64,000 nucleotides of DNA from Haloprofundus halophilus (GTDB lineage Archaea; Halobacteriota; Halobacteria; Halobacteriales; Haloferacaceae). This document shows, piece by piece, positions 2 through 16,522 of the stretch. The position numbers and the translations under genes were made by a program. The stretch's first letter is position 1. Each line of letters starts with the position of its first letter. Location of the stretch: assembly GCF_003439925.1 (NCBI RefSeq), contig NZ_QQRR01000001.1:1116001-1180000 (forward strand). The letters run 5' to 3'. The notes beneath the pieces were generated by a model. That model saw only the letters and a program-made list of their open reading frames with translations, made no database searches and was not told the DNA's origin.

Positions 2-1405
2 GGGGCCGTTGGAGCGTTACTTGCCTCACCGCATAACGCGACGATTCTTGAGGAAGGTGGCGTTGAGTTCGGCGTTCACAAAGACAACCGGAGTCCCGTT
101 GTGATTGACCCGTTTGCTCGTGAGAACGGGTATGCAATGTTCACTATCGGCGATCCCGGCTCGGGCAAGTCGTTCGGGTCGAAACAGAACTTCATTCGCT
201 CCATCGAACAGAGCGAGGACCGTATCGGTATCATCCTCGAACCACTGAATAACTGGACTGGGGTTGCGGAAGCCCTCGGTGCAGAACGAATTACGGTTGG
301 TGGGAATATGGGACTGAATCCGTTGGAATTGAAGCCGACACCTGAGCGTGTTCGGCGAGCGATGGGAGAAGACGCCAGTCCATTCAAAGACAAAAAGGAC
401 GATGCGCTGAGCTTCCTGATGAACTTCTTCGCACTCCGGGGTGTGGAGCTTGGGGATCGCCTTACAACGGTTGAGACGGCGCGGGATGAAGCGTATGCTC
501 GCAAAGGAATTACTGACGAGATAGATACGCACGACAACGAGAGTCCGACGCTGCGTGATATGATGGACGTCTTCGAGGAGATGATCGACCAGCCTGAAGG
601 CTTCGTCGTTCGCTCGGATGCTGAAGCCGGAAAGATTCGAGACGACGCGAAGTGGTTGCTGGATCAGTTCCGTCCGTTCGAGGAGGGTGGCCGGTATGCG
701 AATCTCGGGAAACAAACGGAGTTTGATATTCGTGACGAGGACATCATTTACCTTGACTTCGGGCAGAAAGACGGCAGCGTCGGTGGCAGTACGAGTCTCA
801 TCATGCAGCTTCTGATTTCGCTTGTGTATGAGCGGGCGAAGGAGACCGAGAAAGAGATCGTGTTCGTCATCGACGAAGCCCGCTATATCATGCAAGATAC
901 GGCGACGCTGCAGTTCCTCGAAACGGTGTTCCGACATCACCGCCACCACGATCTCTCGATTCGGCTTGTGACGCAGACGGTCGACGAGTTCTTCCAGCAC
1001 GACGAGTCAGAGGCGATTCTCGATCAGTGTGCGGTCAAGCAGTTCCATCAACTCGATGGCATGGACGAACACTGGGCCAACGAATTCGGGTTGAACCATG
1101 CTCAGATGCGGTACGTTCAGAATGCGGTATTGGGGAGCGAGGAAGTCGGGTATTCTGAGGCGCTCGTTGGAGTGGATAACGACTGGCGAGGAATTGAGGT
1201 TCGAGCATTACCGAAGGAGCAGCAGGTTATCGACTTCGACGCGAAAGAGCAGTCGAAAGTGGAGTTGCCTGGGGTGACTGACGCAACTTCGCAAAACAAG
1301 TGTGACAAGACGGTCGAATCTCATGGCGAGGCCGATACGCACTCGAATCGAATACGTGCCGAGACTGACAGTGGGGGCTGTGGATTCACAGGTTCTCGGC
1401 GGTGA
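2..1405 (+). CDS. VirB4/TraC-like conjugation ATPase, 5' end outside window
   Basis: The reading frame is open from base 2, so the gene begins upstream of the window and only its C-terminal ATPase half is present; the GTG at 101 is internal. A Walker A motif (GDPGSGKS) lies just after it and a Walker B (IVFVIDEARYIM) near base 860, followed by a VTQTVDEF stretch typical of VirB4/HerA-type motors. VirB4 proteins power type IV secretion and conjugative DNA transfer at the membrane. A VirD4-like ATPase at 49939-53538 is the likely partner in the same transfer apparatus. The last ~60 residues are low in complexity and probably a flexible tail. The family call is confident; the substrate is inferred. 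Confidence 0.85.
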   Translation, partial: GAVGALLASPHNATILEEGGVEFGVHKDNRSPVVIDPFARENGYAMFTIGDPGSGKSFGSKQNFIRSIEQSEDRIGIILEPLNNWTGVAEALGAERITVGGNMGLNPLELKPTPERVRRAMGEDASPFKDKKDDALSFLMNFFALRGVELGDRLTTVETARDEAYARKGITDEIDTHDNESPTLRDMMDVFEEMIDQPEGFVVRSDAEAGKIRDDAKWLLDQFRPFEEGGRYANLGKQTEFDIRDEDIIYLDFGQKDGSVGGSTSLIMQLLISLVYERAKETEKEIVFVIDEARYIMQDTATLQFLETVFRHHRHHDLSIRLVTQTVDEFFQHDESEAILDQCAVKQFHQLDGMDEHWANEFGLNHAQMRYVQNAVLGSEEVGYSEALVGVDNDWRGIEVRALPKEQQVIDFDAKEQSKVELPGVTDATSQNKCDKTVESHGEADTHSNRIRAETDSGGCGFTGSRR

Positions 1406-1692
1406 ATAAAGATCGCATCAGGATGTCGTTGGTTACTAAGTCACGATGAGTATAGTGGAGCCGGAATTGACCCACAATCGGAAAGAGCAGTACAGCTGTG
1501 AAAGCCACACCGTTCAAAGGTGAACACTACTCGGAGTCAGGTTCTCGACTAGGTACCGTAATAAGCGTGAGATCATGACTACGCCTGAGTGTTGCGCGGT
1601 AGCAGCCTAACCAAGGTCGGGTGTCACAGACTTTTCTAAATTCGATAATGTATATGAAGAGGTCAAATACTTGCCCAGCGTATATTCTGGGT

Positions 1693-1920
1693 ATGGACCC
1701 AGAAGGTTTTCAGCAAATGTTTGAAGCGATGCCAAATATTGGGGTTGTAGGCGGCTTCGGTATCGTTGATGATGCTGAGGTAACTCCACCTGAGACCACG
1801 ATTTATATTCGTGGCGAGAATGGTGGTGTCCGGGTTCCATTGGATGCGGTTGTTGCTCAGGATATGGCTGAATTGTTTGAGCGGTTGGCAAAGGACCTCG
1901 CCGTGAACGCTGGAAAGTGA
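1693..1920 (+). CDS. small acidic hypothetical protein
   Basis: No family recognised. From the ATG at 1693 the protein has 75 residues, beginning MDPEGFQQMFE, with a Gly-rich central part and a C-terminal amphipathic helix. Longer starts exist in frame (GTG 1621, ATG 1648), but a TATA-like stretch around 1648-1656 lies about 40 bases upstream of 1693, which suits a short-leader haloarchaeal transcript. The gene stands alone between the VirB4-like gene and a decayed reading frame. It is probably real because codon use is normal and the frame ends in a helical, charged tail, but function is unknown. Confidence 0.5.
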   Translation: MDPEGFQQMFEAMPNIGVVGGFGIVDDAEVTPPETTIYIRGENGGVRVPLDAVVAQDMAELFERLAKDLAVNAGK

Positions 1921-2300
1921 TTGGACCCACCAAGAGAATCAGAAACCGGGCAACCGGACTTGATTGTCCTAGAAATGACCCCGCAGACAGCAACGAGCGA
2001 GAGTACTTGATCACGGAAGGGAAGAACAGCACACGAACGGATACCATTCGGCAAGGCATCAAAGAGGCACTCGAATACTTAGCACTCCTTTGAGTGAACG
2101 GAAAGTTCGTATTTGGAGATGAGACAGATTGGGACTACTTCGGCGATTAATCCAATGGAATGCTCGTAATTTAGGACCTCCCAGAAGAGACGGCTGATTT
2201 GGAGAAACAGGCAGAGAGTGCGATAACCAGACTACAGGCATCTGAATTGGAGAATGAACTTGGGAATGTATTATGTAAAATTATACAACCACCTGGGTAA
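1920..2300 (+). pseudogene. decayed gene with three in-frame stops
   Basis: One frame (first base 1920) reads protein-like over its whole length but is broken by TGA at 2091, TAA at 2148 and TAG at 2172 before ending at TAA 2298. The pieces look like real protein: REYLITEGKN and TRTDTIRQGIKEALEYL before the first stop, VNGKFVFGDETDWDYFGD between the first two, and DLPEETADLEKQAESA plus a helical tail after the third. No frameshift is needed to join them. No family is recognised. It is most simply a gene inactivated by successive point mutations. Confidence 0.55.
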
Positions 2301-2399
2301 ATTGGTGTCTGGAGTGAAATAGTCCAGCCACTCAGTCGGTTTCTTCGCAAACAACTATTTCTAGATGTAAGAAAATTACCAGTCTGCCTCTCTGGTAGA

Positions 2400-3674
2400 T
2401 CAGGCGAGTAGTTCTCGTAGCTCGGTCTCAATTTCTGATTCGATGGAGTCGCAGAAATCAGCATATGAGGGTGGTTCGTGTCCCGGAGAAGCATGCCCAG
2501 TCTCAATTTTGGTCACACGGAGTGGTGTGTTTCTTTCGTCGTTTCTCGTGTACCTGTAATGCTCTTTTATTTCACCAGATGTATCAGGGTAAACGAGTAA
2601 TCCGGACGTTCCTTGCTGTGCCTGATATGCTGACATTTGGTACAGATCCTCCCGAGATGGTCGTCTCGCGTTTTTCCACTTTGCATCTCCGACAACTACC
2701 ACGCGTCGTGCGTCCCCACGGAGGATGATGTCCGGGTCGAGCCTCTGAAGATGTGCCCCTGAATCTGTTTGCAATAGATTACCGATTGAGCGATCAGAAC
2801 TCTCCTCTGGATTTCCATCTCCCCCGATAATCAATCCCATCTGTTCTGCTACACGCTTAACAGCGCAGAACACGACGTTCTCGAAGAGAATCTCTGTATT
2901 GAGGAGAATTCGATCTATGTCAACTGATCCTCGACTCACATCCTGAATATATACTTCTGAGAGAATGAGTTCGGCCAGCCGTAATATCGAATCATAATGG
3001 CTGTTTAGCCGTGTGAGTTCGACTTCAGAAGGGTCCGGACAGATCGCTGGCGTCGAGACTTGTCGATGAAGGCGGGCGTAAGAGCGTCGAAGGTCACTTT
3101 GAAGCGACCGTGAAGTCACAGCAGAACTGAGAATGTCTGTCGCTTCTAGTAGTATTTGATTCAGGGGAATATCTGCTGTCAACTCGTCAAATCTGCACTC
3201 GAATCGTGCATTCCGAAATCCTCCTTTCTGAAGTTGCTTGTTGACATCGAGTGTTCCACGGATGTAGCTCTCTGATTCCTCTTGCAGGCTGTACTCTCGA
3301 TGGATACCTTGCTGGAGAATGTTTTGAAGCTCTTTGAGAAATAGCCATCCCAGGAGATCCACAAATGATCGTCCCTCGTTCACTGTTGCTTCTCGACCGA
3401 CTGAAACTTCGTCTATACGCCCGGTATACGCAAGAAAGTATAGCAGGTTACAGTCTATTTTGGGGCGAATTTCGAGTAGACGTCCACTTGGGAGTCTGAC
3501 CACTCCTGTGTAATGGCTGGGTGTGACCATCGCACTCGTCTCTGAGAGTGGTTCTACGTCGAATTCGTTAAGCGCACTGAGTGACTGAATGTCGGTCTGT
3601 GTGAGATGTTTGATGACTCTCCCAGTACGCTCGACAAGTGGCGCTGTGTCATCGGTTGCTAACCCTGTTGTCAT
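2400..3674 (-). CDS. mcrC: McrC-family subunit of McrBC restriction system
   Basis: McrC is the nuclease subunit that, with the GTPase McrB, cleaves DNA carrying modified bases. The 424-residue length fits the family. The N-terminal part contains the typical segment PSHYTGVVRLPSGRLLEIRP. The C-terminal PD-(D/E)xK nuclease core is visible as DPDIILRGD followed by VVVVGDAKWK. The start overlaps the stop of mcrB by four bases (ATGA), so the two genes are translationally coupled. The system lies back-to-back with a putative base-modification locus starting at 6082, so its targets may include foreign modified DNA. The call is confident. Confidence 0.92.
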   Translation of the reverse strand: MTTGLATDDTAPLVERTGRVIKHLTQTDIQSLSALNEFDVEPLSETSAMVTPSHYTGVVRLPSGRLLEIRPKIDCNLLYFLAYTGRIDEVSVGREATVNEGRSFVDLLGWLFLKELQNILQQGIHREYSLQEESESYIRGTLDVNKQLQKGGFRNARFECRFDELTADIPLNQILLEATDILSSAVTSRSLQSDLRRSYARLHRQVSTPAICPDPSEVELTRLNSHYDSILRLAELILSEVYIQDVSRGSVDIDRILLNTEILFENVVFCAVKRVAEQMGLIIGGDGNPEESSDRSIGNLLQTDSGAHLQRLDPDIILRGDARRVVVVGDAKWKNARRPSREDLYQMSAYQAQQGTSGLLVYPDTSGEIKEHYRYTRNDERNTPLRVTKIETGHASPGHEPPSYADFCDSIESEIETELRELLA

Positions 3675-5824
3675 TCGTTGTTTGCAAGCTGAATCAGATC
3701 GCGGTTTGTGAGGACTAAGTCTTTCAACACCGTTCGGAGGGTTTCGACGGTGAAATCCGCAATATCCTCTGTTTGTTGGTCGAAGAGATCACAATCAGTA
3801 GATCCGAAGACCAGGCGTTGCATACTGTCGAACTCTCCAAAGAAATACTCCTCGAGTAGGGTCAGTATATCGTACCGCCAGACATCCACGAGGGCACGCT
3901 CTCTACTCACCTCTGAATGGTCCCACTCTCCAGGGAGCAAATACGAGTGTCCTATACGCATTCCTTTTCCAAGACCAGCGGTCTCTACGATCCTTCTATT
4001 AATGACCTCTAAACTGAGTACTGACGCTGCTTGCAGAGCGTCGAAATTTACCCTCCCTGTCTCGAGTAATTCCAAAGCCTCTGCCCGACTCTCGAACGGG
4101 AACTCACATGAGTTATACAAGACTGAATATTCGGGTGGGGCTGCGATCGCTGCAAATCGACGTCTAATAGCAGCATCGACAAGTGCGATTGATTGGTCTG
4201 CAGTGTTCATCGTTGCGATCAAATAAACATTTCTCGGAATTTGGAACGGCTGGCCAGAATGTGCTAACTTGACGCTTTCTCCCCGCTTGCTGTACTCTGT
4301 GACTTTAATAATCTCGCCAAGGATTTTAGCGATATTGCCTCGGTTTACTTCGTCGATGACGAAAACGTATTTCGGAATCTCTCCTTTCTGACCACTTTCT
4401 AACCAGGAATCATACTCGTCTTGTGCATCCTCGCAAAATTCTTTGAACACACCATCCTTTAGTCCAAAACTGCCGGCAGAATTCACATCCCCACCGTTGT
4501 TTCCGGCCTCTTTAGCATCGGTGACGATCGAATATCCTTCCATGAAGTCTTCGTAGGAATACGAGGGATGGAAAGTAACCTCCTCAATGCGCTCTTCACT
4601 GTCTACATCACAATCTTGGACTCCCGTCCACCACCGAGCGAATGTGTCTGCTGTGTACGTTTTTCCGGTTCCTGGTGGACCGTACAGTAGCACTTGCCCC
4701 TTTCTCTCGAGTTGTCGTTTGACCTTCTTTGCGAGATCTGTATCTACGGGCCATTCTTTCAGATCCCAATAATTGTAGAGAGTTTCTTCTATGGATTCTG
4801 AAAGGAAGGTATCCAATGAGCCGTAGGTAGCAGCGATTTGGGTTTTGTAGTCGTCCAGTGGCGTCCATCCGTCATTGGGATGGTCACCCCAGTCGAGCAC
4901 AGCGTCACTGAAGAAATGGTCCGTATCGATTGATGGCTTCGAGACGTTCGAGAGGTAGATAACGTAATTGAATGGATCATCAGCTACGAAGTTCGGCCAA
5001 ATCTCTTCATAGAGACGAGCTGCTTGAGCAGAGTTATACTCTTCAGCGAAAAGGACCTCTGCGAGAGCGATATAGCCGTCCTGGCCTGAGTAGAACAAAA
5101 GAACATCGCCTTTCTGCACGCGCTTGTCCGCAATTGTCGTCGATCGATTCCCCCAAATACGGAGGTCAGTTCGGTCAAAAGTATCTCCAGTAACACGAGA
5201 AACCGCCTCTGCAGAGACATCAGATGCGACAGTTTGCTCATAATGCTCTCTCATCCCCTCTGAATTAGACACTTTGATGGTCACAAGACGCCGATTATCG
5301 GTTGAAGTAGCAATATACCCGTTTTCGTCTTCCAGTAGATCAATGCCAACTGAGGTCAAGTGGCAACGGTCACCATTGTACGCGATCGCATCGAGTCCAA
5401 TAAGCCAATCCAAGACCAACTTGATTGTCTCTTCACGCTCTTCCTCCTCAAATTCAGAGGTAATCTTCTCTGTTGGTGCAGGACCAGACTGAAGATACTC
5501 AAGTACTCCAACTAACTCTGAATTGTTCTCTGCAATCCATTCGAAAATCAGCGCTGGATCTTTCTCCCTGTAATAGACCTCACCCCGTTCGGCAACCTTA
5601 TATCGTCCACTGCTTTTTTCAATCAACTCTATACTTTGAAGAAAGCGTATAATCTGGAGAATAGACTCTTCGCTATCGGGTTGATCAAAGGTTCCGTTCC
5701 ACCAATCCGTGATCTGCCCTCGTGTCGGCGATTGGTGTTGGGTGTATTTTAGAATCCGTGAGAGAGAGTCAAGGTATCCGCTAGGAGATCCCGGAAGAGA
5801 CGAAATCGAGTGAGGCTTGCTCAT
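3671..5824 (-). CDS. mcrB: McrB-family GTPase with N-terminal recognition region
   Basis: McrB is the AAA+ GTPase that recognises modified DNA and drives McrC cleavage. The AAA+ core begins near residue 385 with Walker A GPPGTGKT, followed by Walker B VFVIDEVNRGN and the family signature TMNTADQSI with RRRF. The N-terminal ~180 residues look like winged-helix repeats. A region around residues 190-330 (IWGNRS, KGDVLLFYSGQDGYIALAEV) resembles EVE/PUA-type base-reading domains. ATG at 5824 is preferred; a GTG at 5836 would add four residues. The gene is transcribed with mcrC and away from the dpdA-like gene, sharing the 5837-6081 intergenic region. Confidence 0.92.
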   Translation of the reverse strand: MSKPHSISSLPGSPSGYLDSLSRILKYTQHQSPTRGQITDWWNGTFDQPDSEESILQIIRFLQSIELIEKSSGRYKVAERGEVYYREKDPALIFEWIAENNSELVGVLEYLQSGPAPTEKITSEFEEEEREETIKLVLDWLIGLDAIAYNGDRCHLTSVGIDLLEDENGYIATSTDNRRLVTIKVSNSEGMREHYEQTVASDVSAEAVSRVTGDTFDRTDLRIWGNRSTTIADKRVQKGDVLLFYSGQDGYIALAEVLFAEEYNSAQAARLYEEIWPNFVADDPFNYVIYLSNVSKPSIDTDHFFSDAVLDWGDHPNDGWTPLDDYKTQIAATYGSLDTFLSESIEETLYNYWDLKEWPVDTDLAKKVKRQLERKGQVLLYGPPGTGKTYTADTFARWWTGVQDCDVDSEERIEEVTFHPSYSYEDFMEGYSIVTDAKEAGNNGGDVNSAGSFGLKDGVFKEFCEDAQDEYDSWLESGQKGEIPKYVFVIDEVNRGNIAKILGEIIKVTEYSKRGESVKLAHSGQPFQIPRNVYLIATMNTADQSIALVDAAIRRRFAAIAAPPEYSVLYNSCEFPFESRAEALELLETGRVNFDALQAASVLSLEVINRRIVETAGLGKGMRIGHSYLLPGEWDHSEVSRERALVDVWRYDILTLLEEYFFGEFDSMQRLVFGSTDCDLFDQQTEDIADFTVETLRTVLKDLVLTNRDLIQLANNE

Positions 5825-5836
5825 ATTACCACTCAC

Positions 5837-6081
5837 AGAACTGTAGACAATCTACATGTAGCTTTCGCGAAACAGTCACACTTCCAAATAGCTATAGATG
5901 GCTCCAAGTGTGGTTCTATGACAGGTAGAAAGATAATTAACGGATCACGAGATAGACAGCTACAGATACTCAAATTTATGATCTTGAGAACTTCTCCTCA
6001 CACCCAACCAACTCATTGCTGTACGAATGACTGCCAAGTTCGCACCCACTATAATTCCTGGATTTTACAGAGAGGTGAATA
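5837..6081. promoter_or_regulatory. divergent promoter region between mcrBC and dpdA-like operon
   Basis: This 245-base AT-rich gap separates the leftward mcrBC genes from the rightward dpdA-like run, so it must hold promoters for both. A TATA-like stretch (CAAATTTATGATC) lies near 5970-5983. A purine-rich GAGAGGTGA at about 6069-6077 sits just before ATG 6082 and is a good Shine-Dalgarno match. I see no clear operator palindrome. Confidence 0.45.
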
Positions 6082-7086
6082 ATGGATTTCTACGCTGCCC
6101 TCTCAGTCAATCGATCTTCAATACGGAAAATCGCAAAACGCCTTGAAGAGGAGTACTCGTCCTTTGATCCACTCCAAAATATTATCTTCACCCCCATTAC
6201 TCAGGGAGAAACGAGCCACCAGGAGATCCGGCGAGTCGCCGAAAAGTATGACGTCAATCTCATGTTCGACTCGGGAGGATACGAAGTACAGACCGGCCAT
6301 TTTGAATTTGATGATCTTTACGAGTATCTGATTGACTATTATTCTGATAACCAGTGGGCATCTCGATACGTTCTTCCAGACAACGTTCCCGTTTCTGGTG
6401 ACTCACCGGAGGTTGTCGAACAGAAGGTCACTGAGACACTGAGTGCGTCTCGAAGTTGCTTCAAACGTCTCCCAGAATTCGTTCAGGAGAACGCTGTAGG
6501 AGTTATACAAGGCCACACCCGCGAGCAAATTTCTCGGTGCGTAAACGAATACTCGGAGTTTGAGAACCTCAAACACCTCGGGTTCGGGAGTTTCGCGACG
6601 AGTGGGGGTCAGAACAGCGTGAATATGCTGACCAGCGAGTCCCTGCAGAACCTCCGTTGGGCGGTCAAATTAGCGAAAGAACACGGATTCACCATCCATG
6701 CATTCGGAATTGGAGGGCCGACGAGCATTCCACTTTTGGAAGAAGCTGGTGTAGACAGCTTTGACACCTCATCGTGGATGAAATCCAGTGGATACGGTAA
6801 CGTCTTTTTCCCTTTCAAGAGTCGGTACAATGCCTCACACAGAACGCTACGAAGTGGTAAAGTACTAATGGCAGATAACTTGGAAGATCTCAAGGAAGAA
6901 ACGAACCACGATTGTCCGTTCTGTCGTGATGTTGCAAAGCTTCGTGAGGACCGTCTCACGAGGGTCATGCACAATTTAGTTGTGACTCACGAACTCAGCA
7001 ATCGGGTATCCGGGATGGCTCGTGATCAGATGGCTGGACAAATGGACACTAACTCGATGTATCGACGTCGTTTAGAAACCATGTGA
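6082..7086 (+). CDS. dpdA: DpdA-like TGT-family 7-deazaguanine transferase
   Basis: The protein belongs to the tRNA-guanine transglycosylase superfamily but, at 334 residues, has the short DpdA-like form that exchanges guanine for a 7-deazaguanine (preQ0) in DNA. Visible motifs are DSGGY at 63-67 (base-binding Asp), VIQG at 141-144, FGIGGPTSIP at 208-217 and GVDSFDTSSW, whose Asp228 matches the TGT nucleophile. A metal site is suggested by Cys278, Cys281 and His297 in MHNL. No RNA-binding PUA domain is present, unlike the archaeal tRNA enzyme. It heads a seven-gene rightward run with ATPases and a PglZ-like gene, and a QueF-family gene faces the run. DNA as substrate is inferred from length and context. 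Confidence 0.82.
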   Translation: MDFYAALSVNRSSIRKIAKRLEEEYSSFDPLQNIIFTPITQGETSHQEIRRVAEKYDVNLMFDSGGYEVQTGHFEFDDLYEYLIDYYSDNQWASRYVLPDNVPVSGDSPEVVEQKVTETLSASRSCFKRLPEFVQENAVGVIQGHTREQISRCVNEYSEFENLKHLGFGSFATSGGQNSVNMLTSESLQNLRWAVKLAKEHGFTIHAFGIGGPTSIPLLEEAGVDSFDTSSWMKSSGYGNVFFPFKSRYNASHRTLRSGKVLMADNLEDLKEETNHDCPFCRDVAKLREDRLTRVMHNLVVTHELSNRVSGMARDQMAGQMDTNSMYRRRLETM

Positions 7087-7139
7087 TCAAACTGTACTGA
7101 ACAGCAACATACTTGGCAGATGCCAGAAGATTGTGGTCA

Positions 7140-7979
7140 ATGTCCAACAAAATCCACATAGAGGGCGGGGATCGACGACCCGTGGCCATGCGGGATTATC
7201 TCGATTTGATTGAGCAGTATGAATATGAGTCAGAAGAAGACGTCATTACTGACGCGTATCAGCAGGGATACGAACTCGGAGAAATTCCGACGAAAAACAT
7301 GGTTTCGACCCTCTCAAGCTTGGGTATCGTAGCTGAATCAGATGGACAAGAACTGACCGACTTCGGGCGAGACTTAGTTGACGTTCTCCTCTATGATGAG
7401 CAATTGTTCTATGAGATGCTCCACTTTCGGTTTTCAACAGTATATGGAATTAATCCGAGTCCTAACAACATGATGTCCTGGGCGTACTACGAAGTTTCAA
7501 ATATTCTCTACAATACTGCTCCGATTGAATCTTTCTCGGATATCAAGCAAGATCTCGCAGATGATATCATTTACCGATCTGATCAAATGACTGGGCCAGG
7601 ATTCGATGACGGTGAACCGGGTGCTTTCAGTAGAAAGAGTATCAATGGGTATCAGAAATTCATCGAAGTCCTCGAACCTCCGGTAATTGAAGGCGGTGTA
7701 ATTGATCTTCGGAGCTACGCGCGAGAAGAACTCATCATCTCCGCAATTGACTATATCTACCGTTCAGAAGTGGTTGCACCGACGCTCTCGTACGGTGATT
7801 TGCTGGAACTTTCCAACGAGATTGAAGAAGTTATTGGAACAGTCTGTCTTCTTGCCCCCCAGTCGATTGACGAAATGATTGAACAGACTGCAGCTGGGTA
7901 CGACTCTTGCTCTGTCGAATCTGATCACCGCGTGCGTGTACGGTTACGCGAAGAGGTGAATCTGAGTGACCTCACCTAG
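7140..7979 (+). CDS. unknown protein of the dpdA-like operon
   Basis: No family is recognised with confidence. ATG at 7140 (MSNKIHIEGG) is preferred over a TTG at 7113. The first ~90 residues look like a winged helix (PTKNMVSTLSSLGIV followed by LTDFGRDL). The rest is predicted mostly helical and ends in a charged RVRVRLREEV segment. It lies 53 bases after the dpdA-like gene and overlaps the next gene by 14 bases, so it belongs to the same transcript. Bacterial Dpd loci also carry an uncharacterised protein (DpdG) beside an ATPase (DpdH); equivalence is only a positional guess. Confidence 0.7.
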   Translation: MSNKIHIEGGDRRPVAMRDYLDLIEQYEYESEEDVITDAYQQGYELGEIPTKNMVSTLSSLGIVAESDGQELTDFGRDLVDVLLYDEQLFYEMLHFRFSTVYGINPSPNNMMSWAYYEVSNILYNTAPIESFSDIKQDLADDIIYRSDQMTGPGFDDGEPGAFSRKSINGYQKFIEVLEPPVIEGGVIDLRSYAREELIISAIDYIYRSEVVAPTLSYGDLLELSNEIEEVIGTVCLLAPQSIDEMIEQTAAGYDSCSVESDHRVRVRLREEVNLSDLT

Positions 7980-8358
7980 AGCCTCACTTCTACGTACAAC
8001 AAATAATCTCAAGCGGCAACTCGATGAGTCACTTCTCACGGAAGCTCAGGCCAGTGCATTAGAACAGATATCCACAGCTCGTGAGGAAGGCCATCATCGA
8101 ATCAATCTCTATGGACCATCAGGTGCTGGGAAGACAGTACTGTGTTGGGTATTGCAAGAAGTCCAGAATTGGGAATATCATCCCTTCCCTGAGAAGCAAC
8201 CAAAACAAACGTCAGTGATTGTGGATCATGGCGACCATAAACGATCTTCGACGCGCCGTCTTCGAAATTACATGAAGCTTAACGGTGTAAGTTTTCTCTT
8301 GTATGTGACAAACCAACCCGCAGATGAGATTTATCCAAGATTGAAACTAACTGACTAA
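7966..8358 (+). CDS. small P-loop NTPase of the dpdA-like operon
   Basis: This 130-residue protein has a clear Walker A (GPSGAGKT, residues 50-57) after a helical N-terminus, but is far shorter than a normal AAA+ protein. No classical Walker B is evident; the end contains LLYVTNQPADEIY. The GTG start lies inside the last codons of the preceding gene, giving a 14-base overlap that suggests translational coupling. It may be a regulatory or loader subunit for the large ATPase that follows. A truncated ATPase is possible, although the ending does not look abrupt. Confidence 0.65.
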   Translation: MTSPRASLLRTTNNLKRQLDESLLTEAQASALEQISTAREEGHHRINLYGPSGAGKTVLCWVLQEVQNWEYHPFPEKQPKQTSVIVDHGDHKRSSTRRLRNYMKLNGVSFLLYVTNQPADEIYPRLKLTD

Positions 8359-8389
8359 TTTACTTACTATGCTTTGAACTGATTCGGAA

Positions 8390-8410
8390 AACTTCATATA
8401 TGCTTATTGA
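8390..8410 (+). promoter_or_regulatory. possible internal promoter before the large ATPase gene
   Basis: The 90-base gap between the small P-loop gene and ATG 8449 contains a TATA-like stretch (TTCATATATGCTTATT) about 50 bases upstream of the start. The other gaps in this run downstream of 8449 are at most 37 bases. It may let the ATPase/PglZ/HerA genes be transcribed separately from the dpdA-like part. Confidence 0.35.
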
Positions 8411-8448
8411 CTGAACCATAGTACGAATATCGCATCGAAGATACATAC

Positions 8449-11400
8449 ATGAGTTCACTAACAACAGAGCGCGTTGACAAGCTTAAGGAGCTGATTGATC
8501 GGGACGATGGAATTCTCTCTACCTATTCTTCTCGAGACCTTGTAGACAACCCCTACGCAGTGAATGACGATTACAGCCAATACTCTAATACCCACATCTC
8601 GATGGGTGATACTTCTGATTTTGAAAACAACATTTATTCATCCATCACTGAAAGTGACACACCAACGAAAGGTTTCATCTACGCCCCCTACGGGTACGGG
8701 AAGACCAGCACCGCTGTCAACATTTGGCGCAACCTTTCTGACCGAGACATCATAGCAGTACCTCCGTTCACGTTTACGAGTTTCTCGGACCTATTGCATG
8801 CAACCTACGGATGGATGCGGTACGAGCTGGATAGAAACGCCCCAGACTACGTCGATGATCTCGAAGAGATCCACGCAAAGTACCTCGAACGTGAGCTGGA
8901 GGAATACGCTCAGGAGAAAGGGACGAAATACGGCAAACTCGACCTTGAGCAGCTTGAGGATCTCTTTTCCGACATGGAAAGCGAGGTAGGACTCGATCTC
9001 AGTGTAGATCCGGTTACTCTTGTTGACTTCTTCAACGATTGTACTGAACTCGCTCTTGAAGCAGGTTATGAGGGTCTCGTCATTCTTCCAGACGAATTGC
9101 AGCAATACTTCAAGGGCGCACGGAGTCGCCAGGATGCGGAGGCAGACTTTCGTGACCTCGTCTTCGACATGCACTCTGGGGCCAAAATCTCGGCTCGCTT
9201 CGGATTCATCGTCTCTATGCCCGACACGACGAAAAGTACGCTGGACTCACAAGCTGGCGACGTTGTTCAACGTCTTCAGAGTGACAATCTCACGGTTAAT
9301 CTCAAAACCGTATATGGGGTAGACTTCCCTGCGGAGCTTTGGGAGCGCTATTCCTCAGAGTTCGGTTTCTCGGACAAAAAGTACGAGATAATCTCCGAAG
9401 ATGCTCTAGATGCGATCGGTGAAATCTGCTCTCGCCAAGATCTCAGTGCAGGACCACGGACGGTGATTGATCTGTTCCGAATTGCACTCACCGACCATCT
9501 CAATTCAGAGTCTGGTGAGACATTTACACCAGTCCTCCTAGCAGACGCGTTCTATGAGGGAAAGGTCCGCTACGACCAAAATGCGAAGATACAGTCTGCA
9601 ATCCGTGATGGATTACAACACTCTGAGGTACAGACTGACAGCCACAAAATAGTGATAAAACTGTGTGGTGTCTTTCCCCAGGAGGGTCTCCCCTCCGAAG
9701 TTGCTGAACGGCATGGAGTCGACGAGACGTATTCTGACCTTCAGAAGAAACTTCATGGGGCCGTCCTCACGTGGATATCAAAAGGGTATGTCTTGACCGG
9801 TGTTACCCCTGACGATGAGCAAAGTTCAGTCCGTCGGGATCTTCTTCGACAGTTTTGGAATCAGTATGACACTGACGACGTCAACGCGAAATATGCTGTG
9901 AAGGCTTTCGCTGATTACGCCATTGATGAGAAGATCTTCGAGTCAAAGCGAGGAACCCTTACTGGATGGGCAACTGGAGGTGGGTTCGATCCTATCGATA
10001 GCCGGTTATACAAACTTCAAACTACCGGGACATTCAACGGTAGGTATCCGAAACGCGTAGCCAGTCTTATTGCGACTGATCAGTCGCATAGTGGCAGTGT
10101 CTCAAGTCTTCACGATGAGCTTGGTGCAGGATTCAACAGTCCTGACGTGGGCTTCAACTTCGTTCTTGATTGGCAGTCAAAAGACGAGGGAAGGATTGAG
10201 AAAGTCTCTGAACGCGAATATACGTTCGTTCTGAACGGCCTCAAGGAGTTTGAGGAACTGCCAAATGGTCTTCAGTACTTGCGTGAGTCGATGAATCCAG
10301 AGGAAGTAACTCCTTTCCTCATGCTCAGTCTCACGCGATTCATCGACGAGCAAGACCTCGAGTTAGATGCGAGTGAGGAACAGAATCTCGAAGCGCTTCA
10401 GGATCGACTTGTCCTCGAAGCGATCAATGAACTCTTCGACAAAGAACTGATTCACAACGCTCCTTTCGAGATCCGCCGAGCGGGTGTACAGACTGTGGAG
10501 AAAGTCTTCGAGGAGTCTATGAAATCAGTATACGAAGACTACGAAACTCTCCTGGTTAGTACCCAATACTCTCAGCTTATTGGTGACTATATCAACTTCC
10601 TCCACAGCCTCGACACTGTCTCTTTGCGCCGTGGAAGCACGCCACTAGAGACAACAAAGAAAGATCTTGCGAGTCGATTTAATCTCAAAGGGACGTCTGC
10701 GTTCAGGGGGAGAGTCAAAAAGCAGTACGCCAACCTCCTCGAACTCGAGGAATGGGATGGGCAAAATGCAACCGCTCGAGCAAAACTCCACCCATTTGAA
10801 GAATACATCATCAATTTGCTTGAAGACCAGCAGGAAACGCTCAGCTACGGTGAGTTCCTCGACCTTGCATACGAGCGTGGTTATCGTGAAGAAGAGGTCG
10901 AAGTTATAAGCCAACTCTTGGGGAGTCGTGGTCTCTTAGAAGTCAACGACGAGAACGAGCTTGCCCTCATTGAGACTGAAATTGAGATCTCTGATGTCTC
11001 TAGTCGAGTTGATCAGTGTGAATCCCTCGTAGACCGGATTTCCGAGTTGGACGAAGGTCGAATCCGAGATGAAGATCGAGAATGGATCCAGACCACTAAG
11101 GATGAACTCGAGAATCTCACTAATGATGACGGTGAACAACTCGAAATAATCGATGTTCATGCACGTCAGTTCATCGAACGGATGAATGACGTGGTCGCGG
11201 ACCTTCACAACAAATACAAGAGCGAGTGTCAGGATACTCAACGCGAGATTGAACGTACACGGCGTGGGTTCACACCTAGTCACGTCGACGACGAAATCCA
11301 GGGTGCAGTCCGCTTCGTAGGGAACCTCAACGACGTCCGCACTCGCTTGAAAACTAAATTCGTCGGACTCAAGCGTGATCTCACAGATCTAGATGACACA

Positions 11401-12402
11401 CTCTCTACTGAAATCAGCGAGAAATCGGACCCGATTATCGAAAATGCTGAAGAGCTGAAAACAGCTAACGCTTCCGTCAATAGCACTCTCTCTGATATCA
11501 AGGATGAACGCGATGATCTTGTTGATCAAGCCGAGGCACTCAAACAGTGGAAATCCTTGACAACTCGAACTGCGAACGTCAAACGGAATATCATCTCGTA
11601 TTCCGAGGTATTCGACAATCAGATTGAGGAAGAAGATCAGATCGAGGAGTTCATCGCCAATGTTGCAGAGCAACTCACAAACAATCCAAGTGGCGCAATA
11701 ACGAACGTTAAGACCTTCACACAGCGACTCGAGCAGATAGAGAACTCTTACACACAGCGAAAACGAGAGCGTCGAGAAGTCTTCGACGAAAAGAAGGAGA
11801 TATTGAAGGATATCCTTCAGACAGCGACTGGCCAACGGTCCCGAGGACTTCGGCGTGCGAAGTTCAATATTGACGACCCTGATCAGTCGCGCAAGGATCT
11901 CATGTCTGACTTCAGAGAGGCTTACACAAGTCAAGTTCTGGAGAAAATCGTGAAGGACCTCGAGAATAGCGAACAGGATCTGGAATATGCGCGCATTGTG
12001 GGGGCTGGTTCGCATCTCGATGAGAATCCGTCGACGGTAAGTGATCAAATAGGCCAGCTACAGCGTCGAAAGGAGAAACTTGAGCAAGAACTCAGTCGAT
12101 TCACGTATGAACAGATCGGTGACGAGACAACACTTGGTGAGGAAGGCAACGAAATCCTCACAGGAGCGAACGACCTCCGGAGTGAGTCTCGAGAGTTCCT
12201 TGCTGAAAAAGAGCCTACAGACACTGACCTCAAAGAATTACTCGAGGAAATCCAAGAGCGCGATAAAGTCCAATTCAAGAAGCTCCTAATGGACTTCCAT
12301 GGCCGTGGTGAAGAAATAGATCCCGAGACTCTCCTCGAGAGAATCAATGAACTGTTCCAACTCAACCAAGTCGACATCCAAATCTCAAGTCGACGAAGAT
12401 AG
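8449..12402 (+). CDS. 1317-aa PglY/BrxC-like P-loop ATPase with long coiled coil
   Basis: This giant protein has an N-terminal P-loop ATPase domain: Walker A is APYGYGKT (79-86), in the YGxGKT form seen in PglY/BrxC proteins, and Walker B is probably LVILPDELQQYF around residue 210. The middle part looks helical with winged-helix-like segments. Roughly residues 850-1290 are rich in heptad-like Glu/Leu/Lys patterns, that is, a long coiled coil. PglY/BrxC ATPases work with PglZ in BREX-type phage defence, and a PglZ-like gene follows after 10 bases. Distant relatedness to DpdH is also possible. Size, P-loop form and neighbour support the call; detailed orthology does not. Confidence 0.7.
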   Translation: MSSLTTERVDKLKELIDRDDGILSTYSSRDLVDNPYAVNDDYSQYSNTHISMGDTSDFENNIYSSITESDTPTKGFIYAPYGYGKTSTAVNIWRNLSDRDIIAVPPFTFTSFSDLLHATYGWMRYELDRNAPDYVDDLEEIHAKYLERELEEYAQEKGTKYGKLDLEQLEDLFSDMESEVGLDLSVDPVTLVDFFNDCTELALEAGYEGLVILPDELQQYFKGARSRQDAEADFRDLVFDMHSGAKISARFGFIVSMPDTTKSTLDSQAGDVVQRLQSDNLTVNLKTVYGVDFPAELWERYSSEFGFSDKKYEIISEDALDAIGEICSRQDLSAGPRTVIDLFRIALTDHLNSESGETFTPVLLADAFYEGKVRYDQNAKIQSAIRDGLQHSEVQTDSHKIVIKLCGVFPQEGLPSEVAERHGVDETYSDLQKKLHGAVLTWISKGYVLTGVTPDDEQSSVRRDLLRQFWNQYDTDDVNAKYAVKAFADYAIDEKIFESKRGTLTGWATGGGFDPIDSRLYKLQTTGTFNGRYPKRVASLIATDQSHSGSVSSLHDELGAGFNSPDVGFNFVLDWQSKDEGRIEKVSEREYTFVLNGLKEFEELPNGLQYLRESMNPEEVTPFLMLSLTRFIDEQDLELDASEEQNLEALQDRLVLEAINELFDKELIHNAPFEIRRAGVQTVEKVFEESMKSVYEDYETLLVSTQYSQLIGDYINFLHSLDTVSLRRGSTPLETTKKDLASRFNLKGTSAFRGRVKKQYANLLELEEWDGQNATARAKLHPFEEYIINLLEDQQETLSYGEFLDLAYERGYREEEVEVISQLLGSRGLLEVNDENELALIETEIEISDVSSRVDQCESLVDRISELDEGRIRDEDREWIQTTKDELENLTNDDGEQLEIIDVHARQFIERMNDVVADLHNKYKSECQDTQREIERTRRGFTPSHVDDEIQGAVRFVGNLNDVRTRLKTKFVGLKRDLTDLDDTLSTEISEKSDPIIENAEELKTANASVNSTLSDIKDERDDLVDQAEALKQWKSLTTRTANVKRNIISYSEVFDNQIEEEDQIEEFIANVAEQLTNNPSGAITNVKTFTQRLEQIENSYTQRKRERREVFDEKKEILKDILQTATGQRSRGLRRAKFNIDDPDQSRKDLMSDFREAYTSQVLEKIVKDLENSEQDLEYARIVGAGSHLDENPSTVSDQIGQLQRRKEKLEQELSRFTYEQIGDETTLGEEGNEILTGANDLRSESREFLAEKEPTDTDLKELLEEIQERDKVQFKKLLMDFHGRGEEIDPETLLERINELFQLNQVDIQISSRRR

Positions 12403-12412
12403 AGAGACATAG

Positions 12413-13522
12413 ATGGCGACATACGAGGAGATTCGGTCGTTAGCTCACAAAGAGCCGGTTATTGTTGATCTCCCGCCAGTCTCCTCGGTTTACTTTACCG
12501 ACTACGAAATTTACTCGAACGTCCAGTCCTTCGAGGAAAACCTCTTCGACCCAGATTATCTGTTTGAATCGGATGTGATTATCGACAGTACCGAACGTTC
12601 GCCTAAATACACCAACTTAGAGTGTGACTTTAACCCACTCACATCAGAGTTGGACTCGGTTATCGATTGGTCCTCCCCAGATGACCATGATCAATTGCGG
12701 GATTCGTTACAGATACAATCTCAGATAAAAAACCTCGTTGTAGAGAAGTCATCGGCAGAGGTTGTTGTACTTCTTGCAGTAGATGGCCTCTCTTTTGAGA
12801 CCATACAGCAAGTTAGCGATTATTGGCCGTTGGAAACCGAGACACTGCCTGTTTTTGCGGATGGAGCGACTACGACATCAGAAGGGTTCCGTCGTCTCTT
12901 CTATGGAACGTCAATCGAATCAGTGCACTCTATGATGGCCACAAGAAAGGGCTATCTTTCACATCAAGGCTATCTGCAGTGGAGTCAGAATGAGAGTACC
13001 GAACCAACTTCTGCATTCACATCTATGAACGAACGGAATATTGTGCGAGGCGAATCTTTCGATACGATACTCAAGGAGATCGAGACAGAAGGGTCTGTTA
13101 CCTCAAAGACGTACATCCAAATCGTTCGTGACGGTCTCTCTCGTGATACCTATCCAGATGTGCTTGACAGGAATGAAGCTGCGAAAGAACTCATAGACGA
13201 TACTGTTCGACTTCAAAAACTCTTGGAGACCATAACAGAGACGGCCCAAATCTTCCTCACCGCGGGTCATGGTCTTCTCTGGCAGGAGCACATTGAAGAT
13301 ACCTGGCGAATAATAGATGATTCGGAAACACATCATCCGCGATATATCGAAACGCAGCATGATACCGAACATGGACTTACAAAGCGGACTGCACAGGGCA
13401 ATACAGTGACGGGACTTGCGAAGCCATTCCTCACTCGCCCACTCCAGGATGACGAGGTTGCAGTCTCTGGCGGATTTTCATATCATGAGTCTATTATCCC
13501 ATTTGTAGAGGTTTCGAAGTAA
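12413..13522 (+). CDS. pglZ: PglZ-like alkaline-phosphatase-superfamily protein
   Basis: The protein has the core of an alkaline-phosphatase fold: VVVLLAVDGLSFET near residue 120 supplies the metal-binding Asp, and FLTAGHGLLW near residue 285 matches the TxDHG metal motif of the superfamily, although its Asp is replaced by Gly. HHPRYI follows. PglZ proteins are the hallmark of BREX and related phage-defence systems, where they pair with PglY/BrxC ATPases. At 369 residues it is much shorter than canonical PglZ. It lies 10 bases after the large ATPase and 13 bases before the HerA-like gene, so all three are probably co-translated. Confidence 0.7.
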   Translation: MATYEEIRSLAHKEPVIVDLPPVSSVYFTDYEIYSNVQSFEENLFDPDYLFESDVIIDSTERSPKYTNLECDFNPLTSELDSVIDWSSPDDHDQLRDSLQIQSQIKNLVVEKSSAEVVVLLAVDGLSFETIQQVSDYWPLETETLPVFADGATTTSEGFRRLFYGTSIESVHSMMATRKGYLSHQGYLQWSQNESTEPTSAFTSMNERNIVRGESFDTILKEIETEGSVTSKTYIQIVRDGLSRDTYPDVLDRNEAAKELIDDTVRLQKLLETITETAQIFLTAGHGLLWQEHIEDTWRIIDDSETHHPRYIETQHDTEHGLTKRTAQGNTVTGLAKPFLTRPLQDDEVAVSGGFSYHESIIPFVEVSK

Positions 13523-13535
13523 GGAGACCACAAAA

Positions 13536-14699
13536 ATGCAATTATTCATCGGCGAAGATCAGGAATCAGGAGAAGACGCCTACATCAGCGCAGAACGTGC
13601 ACGTACTGTGCTCGCCTGCGGGAAACGAGGCACTGGGAAAAGTTACTCGATGGGCGACCTCATTGAGGAAATCCACACTGAAACCCGGGAGATCGTTCCC
13701 CTCGTTATCGACCCAATGGGCATCTACTGGACGATGGCCAGTGGAAATGAAAGCCAAGAGCAACTACTCTGGGACTGGGGTCTATCACCAGAGGAATTCC
13801 CAATCAACCTTCTGGTCCCAGGCAATCCAGAGGATCGCTACGGACGAGAAGTATTGGAAGAACTTCAACGCCGCAACATCGATGTCAACTCTCTTGGTCT
13901 CAACCCCTCTGACCTTTCACCCGACAATTGGTGTGATTTGTTCGATTTAAACATCAACAAGCCAATGGGTATCACCCTCTACCGAGCGGTACGGCAACTG
14001 AATGAAGAAGAAGATGAGTTCTTCTTAGATGATATCATTCATAAAGTCGAATTAGATGGAAACGCAGGCGAACGGACGCGAGAGGCGCTCATCAACCGTC
14101 TGCATATGGCTGGTCAGTGGGACGTGTTCACCGATCGCTACGAGAATATTTGGGATACAATTGATGTTGATCGTATCAACGTGTTGGATTTAAGTGTTAT
14201 CGAGCCAGGGAAATACGGTCTCCGAAACCTAGTTGTTGACGTTCTCGCGCGTAACATCTTCCGACAACGCGTCGAAGCTCGTAGACGTGAGGAGTTGAAT
14301 CTCCCAACGAATATACCAAAAGTTTGGATGTTTATCGACGAGGCTCACAACTTCGTTCCGAGTAGCGGCTCCTCTCTCGCCAAAGATACTTTGATTCGAT
14401 GGGTCAAAGAGGGACGCCAACCTGGTCTCTCGATGGTCGTCGCATCACAGCAACCTTCTGCAGTAGATAGTGAGCTCCTCTCACAGTGCGACATTATTCT
14501 TTGTCACAAGATTACAACGAAGGAAGACATGAGTTCACTGAACAAGCTTAGCCAAGATTACATGGGAAGTGAATTGAAGACTTTTGTACGAAATCTGGAT
14601 GGTATTGGAGAAGCAGTCTACGTAAATGACGACGAAGAGACAGTAAGAATGGTCAAAATGCGTCCTCGTAAAAGCCAGCATGGGGGAGGCGAAGCGTAG
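13536..14699 (+). CDS. herA: HerA-like (DUF87) hexameric ATPase
   Basis: HerA proteins are FtsK-related ring ATPases that translocate DNA and often pair with nucleases in repair or defence. Walker A is GKRGTGKS (29-36) and is followed by the family motif PLVIDPMGIYW; Walker B is VWMFIDEAHNFV, with WVKEGRQPGLS and ASQQP after it, both typical of HerA/FtsK motors. At 387 residues it is short and lacks an obvious N-terminal HAS barrel extension. No NurA or other nuclease is adjacent, so the PglZ-like protein, the large ATPase or nearby McrC could supply the effector. Confidence 0.82.
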   Translation: MQLFIGEDQESGEDAYISAERARTVLACGKRGTGKSYSMGDLIEEIHTETREIVPLVIDPMGIYWTMASGNESQEQLLWDWGLSPEEFPINLLVPGNPEDRYGREVLEELQRRNIDVNSLGLNPSDLSPDNWCDLFDLNINKPMGITLYRAVRQLNEEEDEFFLDDIIHKVELDGNAGERTREALINRLHMAGQWDVFTDRYENIWDTIDVDRINVLDLSVIEPGKYGLRNLVVDVLARNIFRQRVEARRREELNLPTNIPKVWMFIDEAHNFVPSSGSSLAKDTLIRWVKEGRQPGLSMVVASQQPSAVDSELLSQCDIILCHKITTKEDMSSLNKLSQDYMGSELKTFVRNLDGIGEAVYVNDDEETVRMVKMRPRKSQHGGGEA

Positions 14700-14736
14700 C
14701 CTATTTTGTTGAGTCCTCCGTTGTCTCGTTCTACCG

Positions 14737-15210
14737 ATGTCTGACGAATTTCCTGTCTTATCGGCTTCAGAACCGGAAACCATTGAGTTTCTTCTTAACT
14801 TCTTTAATTCCCCGACCATCAAGAAAGAACTTCATTGGTTCACTCATCGAGCGACGGTCGAGCGTGCATTTGAGCGAGACGATCGTGAGCTATTTTATAC
14901 AGTTAATTCTGGTGACAACACAATCATAGGGGGACTCATGGTGTGGTGTGAATCGCGCGTGCTTGAGCCGCACGAGGCACAAATTCGTCTCGTAGCTGTA
15001 GACCTGGATTATAGAGACTGTGGGATTGGAAAACAGCTTTGCGACGCAGCAGAGGGCTTTGCGAAGGAGTGTGAAAAGAAAGCGATGATTGCCGACGTAG
15101 CGGAGAAATCCCCTGCAGTCTCATTCTGGCATGCTTGTGGCTACAAAACGCAGAAAAAATGGAGCACGAAAAATGGAAGACCAATGCTCCGCGTAGAAAA
15201 ATCACTCTAA
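14737..15210 (+). CDS. GNAT-family N-acetyltransferase
   Basis: The 157-residue protein shows the acetyl-CoA binding motif A (VDLDYRDCGIGKQL) and the C-terminal SFWHACGYK segment of GNAT enzymes. It follows the HerA-like gene after 37 bases and ends 21 bases before the convergent QueF-family gene. Substrate is unknown. Because QueF-type reduction produces an aminomethyl group, acetylation of a modified base is an attractive idea, but an ordinary protein or small-molecule acetyltransferase is equally possible. Confidence 0.82.
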   Translation: MSDEFPVLSASEPETIEFLLNFFNSPTIKKELHWFTHRATVERAFERDDRELFYTVNSGDNTIIGGLMVWCESRVLEPHEAQIRLVAVDLDYRDCGIGKQLCDAAEGFAKECEKKAMIADVAEKSPAVSFWHACGYKTQKKWSTKNGRPMLRVEKSL

Positions 15211-15231
15211 GAAAACATATCCCTGCCAACC

Positions 15232-15594
15232 TTACTCTCTAAGGTGTTTGTCTCCAAGTTCTACGGTCTCTTCGATACCTCCCCGTCTAGCTTGTTCGAG
15301 CCTCAGGTAGAGATGATTTGGTTCAATAGCATTTACCAGAGACTCGTACATTTCGGCACCCAATTCTTCAGCCGTAATTTCAACATCTCGGAATGCCTCG
15401 AGATACTTCTTGAGACTTTTACTCTCTATAGCAAGATTGTTTGGTGAGTAGATGAGTGTCATCTCATAATAGTCTGGTCCTCCAAAGTCGAATGGGCAAA
15501 GAGCAGATAGTTCAGAAGTCTCAAATTTGTAAATTTGATCTGCGTTCGCAGTTGGAGCGTCAAATGTTTCTAAAGTCGCGTTGTCGTTGGTCAT
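15232..15594 (-). CDS. queF: QueF-family 7-deazaguanine enzyme (QueF or QueF-like)
   Basis: QueF reduces the nitrile of preQ0 to preQ1; archaeal QueF-like proteins instead add ammonia to form archaeosine. The 120-residue protein shows the family core: LCPF with Cys33 (nucleophile), GPDY with Asp41, the QueF signature ESKSLKKYL at 57-65, and RRGGI at 103-107. In an ungapped hand alignment with the Bacillus enzyme the catalytic Glu is kept (Glu76) but the preceding His is Ala75. The gene is convergent with the dpdA-like run and ends 21 bases from its GNAT gene. tRNA archaeosine synthesis in haloarchaea normally uses ArcS, so a DNA role with the DpdA-like protein is likely. Confidence 0.85.
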   Translation of the reverse strand: MTNDNATLETFDAPTANADQIYKFETSELSALCPFDFGGPDYYEMTLIYSPNNLAIESKSLKKYLEAFRDVEITAEELGAEMYESLVNAIEPNHLYLRLEQARRGGIEETVELGDKHLRE

Positions 15595-16069: not shown

Positions 16070-16141
16070 GTCTCTATCGCCTGGTTTGTGAAAAGAGTGA
16101 TACAAACAACAGAACAATATGCGCTCAATTTCTACTTGTCG

Positions 16142-16522
16142 ATGATGGCTGAAACCGAGAGCGGGGAAAGGGACATAGATCTCCTACTGACTGAACTGAA
16201 TGATTTTGAAAGAAAAGTTTCCAATGACGATGATGAGACGATATGGTACAAACTCGTTTATCACCGGAAAAAGGGTGATGCAAATCATGAGGGCAAATTG
16301 ATAGAGTTCGGCAAACTTGAGAATACTGGTCATGCTGACTTAGCGCCCCTCTCGTCAGAAGGCTACACTCATTATGGAATATTCCGCCTAACTGACCGAT
16401 CAACGACAACGATCGTCGAATCAGAGGATGGAAATTTGAACAAGGTATTCTCGTTTAGCCGATCAGATGCAAACGTTTCACACGATGTGGAAATTTCTCC
16501 GCGCGATCACAAACTCCCATAG
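16142..16522 (+). CDS. hypothetical acidic protein
   Basis: No family recognised. Starting at ATG 16142 (MMAETESGERD) the protein has 126 residues, beginning with an acidic helix (DIDLLLTELNDFERKV) followed by what looks like a beta-rich domain (IWYKLVYHRKKGD, YTHYGIFRLTD). The next upstream in-frame ATG at 16088 would add 18 residues. It is divergent from the small membrane protein gene at 15914-16069. Confidence 0.5.
   Translation: MMAETESGERDIDLLLTELNDFERKVSNDDDETIWYKLVYHRKKGDANHEGKLIEFGKLENTGHADLAPLSSEGYTHYGIFRLTDRSTTTIVESEDGNLNKVFSFSRSDANVSHDVEISPRDHKLP

Follow-up and report, generated by a model that had tools for sequence, protein, structure and literature searches.

A DpdA-type transglycosylase in a BREX-related operon of Haloprofundus halophilus: a possible link, through QueF and a GNAT, to an acylated 7-deazaguanine mark in cellular DNA

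The window (the whole 64,000-nucleotide stretch of DNA that was analysed) belongs to the 3.47 Mb, 99.35% complete genome of H. halophilus and contains at 6082-15210 a single operon on one strand, with the gene order TGT, DUF4007-like, P-loop, BrxC-like, PglZ-like, HerA and GNAT. The genes of this operon and the two that follow it are listed below with the evidence for each assignment.

6082-7086 (+): DpdA-type TGT, a predicted DNA guanine transglycosylase with no PUA domain (Pfam, alignment, fold model and tree)
7113-7979 (+): 288-aa DUF4007/SspB-like (BrxA-like) putative DNA-binding protein (fold, from a low-confidence model)
7966-8358 (+): 130-aa P-loop protein in the STAND/BrxF-like slot (intact Walker A; BrxF, E 0.012)
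8449-12402 (+): 1317-aa BrxC-like AAA ATPase (BrxC_BrxD, PF10923, in homologues)
12413-13522 (+): 369-aa PglZ-like protein of the alkaline-phosphatase superfamily, a candidate nuclease effector (weak matches to the PglZ profile and structures)
13536-14699 (+): 387-aa HerA/FtsK-type translocase (PF01935 above cut-off; PADLOC HerA, 1.5e-23, and DndH)
14737-15210 (+): 157-aa GNAT N-acyltransferase (PF00583, 2.2e-11)
15232-15594 (-): 120-aa unimodular QueF of the preQ0 reductase family, convergent with the operon (PF14489, 1.8e-15)
16088-16522 (+): 144-aa small protein with no assigned function (in related loci, homologues separate QueF/TGT from QueD)

The TGT gene is an open frame with an ATG start that encodes 334 residues. 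The protein matches the Pfam TGT family (PF01702) with 39.0 bits against a cut-off of 26.3, and a PUA domain was sought in the Pfam scan with no match. Matches to the PADLOC TGT and DpdA models and to the NCBIfam DpdA/TgtA models are weak; for the DpdA model NF041059 the score is 25 bits against a cut-off of 200, and the tree places the protein in the branch that contains DpdA (see below). The residues of DSGGY (Asp63), Asp100, Gln143-Gly144 and GVDSFD (Asp225 and Asp228) are invariant in all eight haloarchaeal homologues, the window protein counted, as is the HxCxxC...H site (His276, Cys278, Cys281 and His297); the other homologues share 43-59% identity with the window TGT. The structure model, computed with eight sequences, has the TIM-barrel fold (mean pLDDT 74), and TGTs account for all of its top PDB matches (E about 2e-8). 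The original prediction of a DpdA-like transferase that keeps the catalytic and metal-site motifs and lacks a PUA domain is thus borne out by the PF01702 match, the invariant residues and the missing PUA match, and the structure prediction that it proposed as a check returned a TGT-like fold.

A phylogeny, also proposed at that stage, was computed from 67 TGT-superfamily proteins. Bacterial TGTs (11 rows) and archaeal TgtAs (12 rows) each form a clade with support of 100/99. The third block (44 rows, 100/99) comprises haloarchaeal TGT paralogues, the DpdA of a Paenibacillus Dpd island, phage DpdAs (9g and others) and the clade of the window protein, which consists of the window and eight other haloarchaeal rows, three from Chloroflexi, Oscillatoria and Poribacterium (100/99). 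This clade lies outside the TGT and TgtA clades, on a branch common to bacterial and phage DpdA (100/98). Forcing it onto TgtA is narrowly rejected by the AU test (p 0.048) and attaching it beside bacterial TGT is not (p 0.106); on sequence evidence the protein is placed outside the known tRNA clades and grouped with DNA-acting enzymes, with a deep attachment that is not firm. An RNA-acting enzyme, that is, a TGT paralogue working on tRNA or another RNA with the cluster as a mere neighbour, would fit this second AU result and a fold whose top PDB matches are tRNA TGTs, but we consider it very improbable in view of the missing PUA domain, the grouping with DpdA, the presence of separate TgtA and ArcS genes on a different contig of the same genome, and the conservation of the operon with restriction-type genes in haloarchaea, several components of which also occur together in Chloroflexi and Oscillatoria.

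The remaining operon proteins resemble parts of BREX systems to varying degrees. The 288-residue protein has a conserved position in eight loci, and its homologues begin at a residue matching an internal ATG near position 7140. Foldseek searches with its low-confidence model matched SspB (probability 0.96-0.99, E 0.03-0.09), a DUF4007 protein (PMC12839542); the predicted resemblance to SspB is one of fold only. The gene for the 130-residue P-loop protein overlaps the preceding gene. Its product contains the invariant GKT of Walker A and is about 30 residues shorter than its homologues at the C-terminus, and its profile matches are of the P-loop type only, so that its STAND assignment is tentative. 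A frameshift hiding the C-terminal tail was rejected, as the three downstream frames are closed and none matches the tails of the homologues. The BrxC-like ATPase has an invariant Walker A (Gly84-Lys85-Thr86), an invariant Asp-Glu pair at 215-216 and a long coiled coil; comparison with solved structures returned coiled-coil chance matches only. BrxC_BrxD is matched in three of the eight homologues (best E 3e-4); the Haloplanus homologue is annotated as 'BREX system ATP-binding domain'. The PglZ-like family has invariant DGL, HG and GGxSYxES motifs and matches the PglZ profile in all eight homologues (best E 0.0013; window copy 0.099, below cut-off), together with a weak match to the PglZ structures 9zn5/9nv3. 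HerA is 62-73% identical across the homologous loci. A methyltransferase domain (PglX) is not among the Pfam matches of the genes scanned at 101-15594, and no PAPS-reductase match was found in the locus.

The window type of TGT is present in eight of the 391 haloarchaeal genomes of our panel. The complete gene order from TGT to GNAT recurs in the other seven (G245, G289, G134, G067, G042, Halorientalis regularis G167 and Halogeometricum limi G157), and an identical order is found on the Haloplanus sp. HW8-1 plasmid NZ_CP098519. A lone viral-type DpdA was rejected on the strength of this conservation, and the option that the enzyme acts alone, left open by the original prediction, is unlikely for a gene that is a constant member of a seven-gene operon. 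In Chloroflexi contigs the 288-residue protein comes after the TGT; two of these contigs end soon afterwards, and one extends past the BrxC-like protein as far as a GNAT. On the Oscillatoria plasmid a GNAT-TGT fusion precedes the 288-residue and BrxC-like proteins. QueC-QueE-QueD adjoin the operon in Haloplanus and G134; in the window genome QueC is on the same contig, 1.1 Mb distant. The G+C content is 47-48% across the locus, compared with mostly 55-57% farther along the window, which is consistent with horizontal acquisition.

Several flanking genes deserve mention. McrB and McrC (2400-5836, minus strand) lie directly upstream of the TGT in divergent orientation, so that modification-dependent restriction is encoded next to a system for DNA modification; they were rejected as a component of the latter, being missing from the other loci except for a weak McrB N-terminal match. 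A UvrD-type helicase/nuclease and a PD-(D/E)XK protein (18301-23771, minus strand) form a pair that is found beside the Haloplanus HW8-1 operon too (61% and 51% identity) and is absent from the other loci over the stretches fetched. A VirB4/TraC-type ATPase (101-1405, plus strand) and the low G+C content of 1-28 kb hint at an integrated conjugative element.

The DpdB model NF041060 was run against the whole genome, which is 99.35% complete, and matched nothing at E <= 0.001. This search found no DpdB elsewhere, either just outside the window or farther away, and the description of a cell-encoded DpdA-like enzyme with no DpdB-type gene stands. Among the PADLOC matches for the ten proteins at 101-14699, DpdA is the only Dpd model. 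A system of similar composition has been described from genomes by Rakesh & Krishnan (NAR, January 2026) as BRC, or BREX-Related Capture, with PglZ, DUF6079, STAND, DUF4007 and HerA, a GNAT and a TGT in a subset, and no DpdB/DpdC, in 45 taxa (PMC12839542). Pfam failed to identify DUF6079, in any of the eight BrxC-like members, or DUF4007, in the 288-residue protein; the BRC paper also used structure. By composition we class the locus as a BRC-type system, its DUF6079, DUF4007 and STAND parts being tentative assignments, and the TGT is very probably the DNA-acting enzyme of such a defence system. The original prediction was thus right about the enzyme class and the lack of DpdB, and overlooked the BREX-related defence nature of the locus and the queF gene. 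Its suggestion that a neighbouring P-loop protein may stand in for DpdB agrees with the BRC authors, who propose the STAND NTPase as a replacement for DpdB; the mark that they propose is dPreQ0 (PMC12839542). The main text of that paper names neither QueF nor queuosine/archaeosine biosynthesis (PMC12839542).

QueF is a constant companion of this TGT in haloarchaea. It was found above cut-off in 11 of the 391 genomes, including all eight that are TGT-positive, in which it is always in the locus; any QueF occurs in just three of the 383 genomes with no window-type TGT (Fisher p 1.3e-14 for the co-occurrence, ignoring relatedness). In seven genomes queF is directly 5' of the TGT gene, overlapping its start in six. 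It is 3' of the GNAT gene both on the Haloplanus plasmid, where the two share a strand, and in the window, where they are on opposite strands and co-expression with the operon is not implied. The open frame at 5810-6082 was considered as a remnant of an operon-head queF and rejected, since its sequence is unlike QueF and it is probably spurious. The QueFs of the loci belong to at least three lineages (operon-head, Halogeometricum and window/Haloplanus types), with modest support given the short proteins. Because the loci have drawn on several lineages, QueF was apparently recruited to them repeatedly, as far as these sequences indicate, and repeated recruitment of one function is a stronger argument than simple linkage. 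The window/Haloplanus type is found elsewhere too, for example on a 47.5 kb Natronosalvus halobius plasmid (L118, 9461-9913), near a gene that resembles C5-cytosine methyltransferases in its N-terminal sequence; the stretch of this plasmid that was examined gave no TGT match.

These observations bear on the published reading of BRC (PMC12839542), in which the TGT would insert preQ0 only, the P-loop/STAND protein would replace DpdB, the GNAT would act on a protein or another base and QueF would be incidental. Such a reading accords with the position of the window queF outside the operon on the other strand, and with the finding that neither the bacterial TGT loci (relatives L050-L053) nor the Oscillatoria plasmid gave a QueF match. 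We regard it as unlikely, though worth keeping in mind, since the loci of all eight haloarchaeal genomes, like the Haloplanus plasmid, include QueF, which is so rare in the other genomes and comes from several lineages. Moreover, of four bacterial genomes examined, three encode a QueF outside the locus and so have no need of one within it; a Chloroflexi MAG that has the TGT yielded no QueF match, such MAGs being incomplete. That these bacteria have QueF elsewhere and haloarchaea normally have none would account for its restriction to the archaeal loci.

The NADPH motif of QueF is E(S/L)K(S/A)hK(L/Y)(Y/F/W). The window protein has an NADPH-type motif, ESKSLKKY, that differs at one position; six operon QueFs have ELKSLKLY or ELKALKLY, and QueF-L has AIEEFKKM. 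The window QueF keeps the catalytic Cys33 and Asp41 and has lost the His of the HE pair. The profile of the family matches B. subtilis QueF at 1.6e-35 and the archaeosine-making QueF-L of Pyrobaculum at 5.7e-10, and the window protein alone matches QueF at 4e-9 and QueF-L at 3e-4, although QueF and QueF-L are not safely separable by sequence alone (PMC6884629). Two viruses with such QueFs, Dp-1 and HVTV-1, have dPreQ1 in their DNA, in HVTV-1 at about 30% of G (PMC6884629). A QueF that worked like QueF-L would convert preQ0, once inserted by the TGT, to deoxyarchaeosine (dG+) on DNA, as is achieved in phage 9g by a different enzyme. The archaeal host, the lost His and the fact that QueF-L acts on preQ0 after its incorporation into nucleic acid (PMC5485725) speak for this route, but we judge it improbable because the NADPH motif is retained, the fit to QueF is far better than that to QueF-L, and the viruses with such QueFs carry dPreQ1 (PMC6884629). 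The inserted base was originally assumed to be preQ0; the queF gene at 15232-15594 points instead to preQ1 or a derivative, and preQ1 rather than preQ0 or G+ is the likely base.

GNATs usually require an amine, and the side chain of preQ1 offers a primary amine where the nitrile of preQ0 offers none. The presence of a GNAT would be explained by QueF, because the preQ1 that it makes has a side-chain amine to acylate. At a threshold of E <= 1e-8, orthologues of the window GNAT are found in nine of the 391 haloarchaeal genomes, namely the eight with the TGT locus and G340, and all are near a TGT. In G340 the GNAT gene is beside a ParB-like gene. Two other TGTs, a TGT-DUF5591 fusion and one of 404 residues, are encoded there, the first of them about 2 kb from the GNAT gene, and are followed by GHKL-ATPase and GmrSD genes. 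No QueF match was found in G340, and the GNAT may not require preQ1 there. As a whole, the G340 cluster (L139, 5292-16675), with the fusion, the second TGT, DUF6884, the GHKL ATPase, a GmrSD-type restriction enzyme, the ParB-like protein and the GNAT of the window family, looks like a further 7-deazaguanine restriction island.

Among 50,697 phage records, relatives of the GNAT occur in eight records of the Druskaviridae only, haloviruses with QueC/D/E/F. In the two annotations examined, the GNAT is 4-6 kb from QueF and adjoins the QueC/D/E/F block. It also adjoins a family-B DNA polymerase in HVTV-2 and HCTV-1 (L129, 10027-10524; L130, 8531-9028), and in HVTV-2 an N6-methyltransferase too. The haloviral protein is orthologous in sequence to the window GNAT and is a candidate enzyme for the acylation or formylation of dPreQ1. 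Cui et al. (2023) reportedly found formylated dPreQ1 in phage DNA and described a predicted formyltransferase named DpdN, as well as a DpdA4 from an archaeal virus. Against acylation stands the description of the dPreQ1 in HVTV-1 DNA as mainly unacylated (PMC6884629). On balance, the evidence leans slightly towards acylation by the GNAT. An IMG/VR contig (3300006054; L128, 3953-5130) has overlapping genes for a GNAT and a short TGT that is 40% identical to that of the window. This adjacent viral pair, with the GNAT family and one QueF lineage common to haloviruses and mobile elements, would also suit a mark that served as weapon or camouflage, the locus modifying incoming DNA or deriving from a virus that protected its own genome. 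The PglZ, HerA, BrxC-like and DUF4007-like partners are defence-type proteins conserved together, however, and we hold this reading to be very improbable.

From the gene identities, the operon, the clade, the absence of DpdB and the co-occurrence of TGT, QueF and GNAT in the sequence, we infer a DNA substrate, preQ1, acylation, an order of steps and restriction. We consider it fairly probable that the TGT performs the base exchange in an archaeal BRC-type defence system in which QueF, TGT and GNAT make a self-mark, with PglZ, HerA and BrxC as the restriction arm. The locus QueF would reduce host preQ0, from the archaeosine pathway, to preQ1, and the TGT would exchange chosen DNA guanines for preQ1; alternatively, it would insert preQ0, with reduction following in the DNA. 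Acylation of the exposed primary amine by the GNAT would yield an N-acyl (acetyl or formyl) aminomethyl-7-deazaguanine as the self-mark. The DUF4007-like, P-loop and BrxC-like proteins might select and open the site in place of DpdB. HerA would capture unmarked DNA, and the PglZ-like protein would cut it. The full proposal, that cellular DNA carries an N-acylated (acetyl or formyl) 7-aminomethyl-7-deazaguanine made by QueF, TGT and GNAT and recognized by PglZ/HerA machinery of a BREX-like kind, the last step of its synthesis being common to haloviruses that imitate it, is put forward tentatively, as a possibility of almost even standing.

The BRC system is already known; the link to QueF and the hypothesis of QueF/GNAT chemistry are new. 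An acylated 7-aminomethyl self-mark on guanine has, to our knowledge, not yet been demonstrated in any cell. If correct, it would add a third self-marking chemistry to the two of the BREX family, methylation and phosphorothioation. The 2026 description of BRC, from genomes only, left dPreQ0 as the supposed mark and the acetyltransferase unexplained; the QueF link would explain the latter. Haloviral dPreQ1 may then be a counter-defence against the same machine. Other TGT clusters are present in haloarchaea. One, on the Haloferax alexandrinus plasmid NZ_CP106970 (L066, 8391-14449) and in L043-L047, encodes a DpdA-like protein of 964 residues (or 732 and 238), a 344-residue TGT, a 298-residue protein with no assigned function and a 385-residue BrxC/D-type ATPase, often near QueD; its 344-residue TGT forms its own clade, with similar proteins in about fifty of the 391 genomes. 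A Haladaptatus sp. YSMS36 plasmid (L068, 1-12286) has three TGT-annotated genes and ATPase genes within about 13 kb.

The locus can be compared with four known systems. Like the Dpd island (DpdA-K), it has a DpdA-type TGT, a predicted 7-deazaguanine in cell DNA and linked restriction genes, but it differs in the lack of DpdB from the window genome, a BREX-like restriction arm and a separate TGT clade. With the Druskaviridae (HVTV-1, HCTV-1/5/16) it shares QueF and the same GNAT family, and the DNA of HVTV-1 carries dPreQ1; these are viruses, however, with a complete QueC/D/E set and without BREX-like genes, and a search of them for the window TGT found no match. BrxC-like, PglZ-like, BrxA/DUF4007-like and P-loop parts are common to BREX types 1-6, whereas the present locus, with no PglX or PAPS-reductase match, has the TGT/GNAT/QueF set and HerA instead. 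The closest resemblance is to BRC, in the association of PglZ, a BrxC-like ATPase, a P-loop protein in the STAND slot, a putative DUF4007-type protein, HerA, GNAT and TGT in one locus and in the sparse distribution in archaea and bacteria; of the features used to recognize BRC, a TGT, a GNAT, HerA/FtsK, a PglZ without extra BREX-PglZ domains and the absence of DpdB are all found here. The differences from BRC are that DUF6079 and DUF4007 are unmatched here by Pfam, that QueCDE adjoin two of the loci and that QueF accompanies every one of the haloarchaeal loci.
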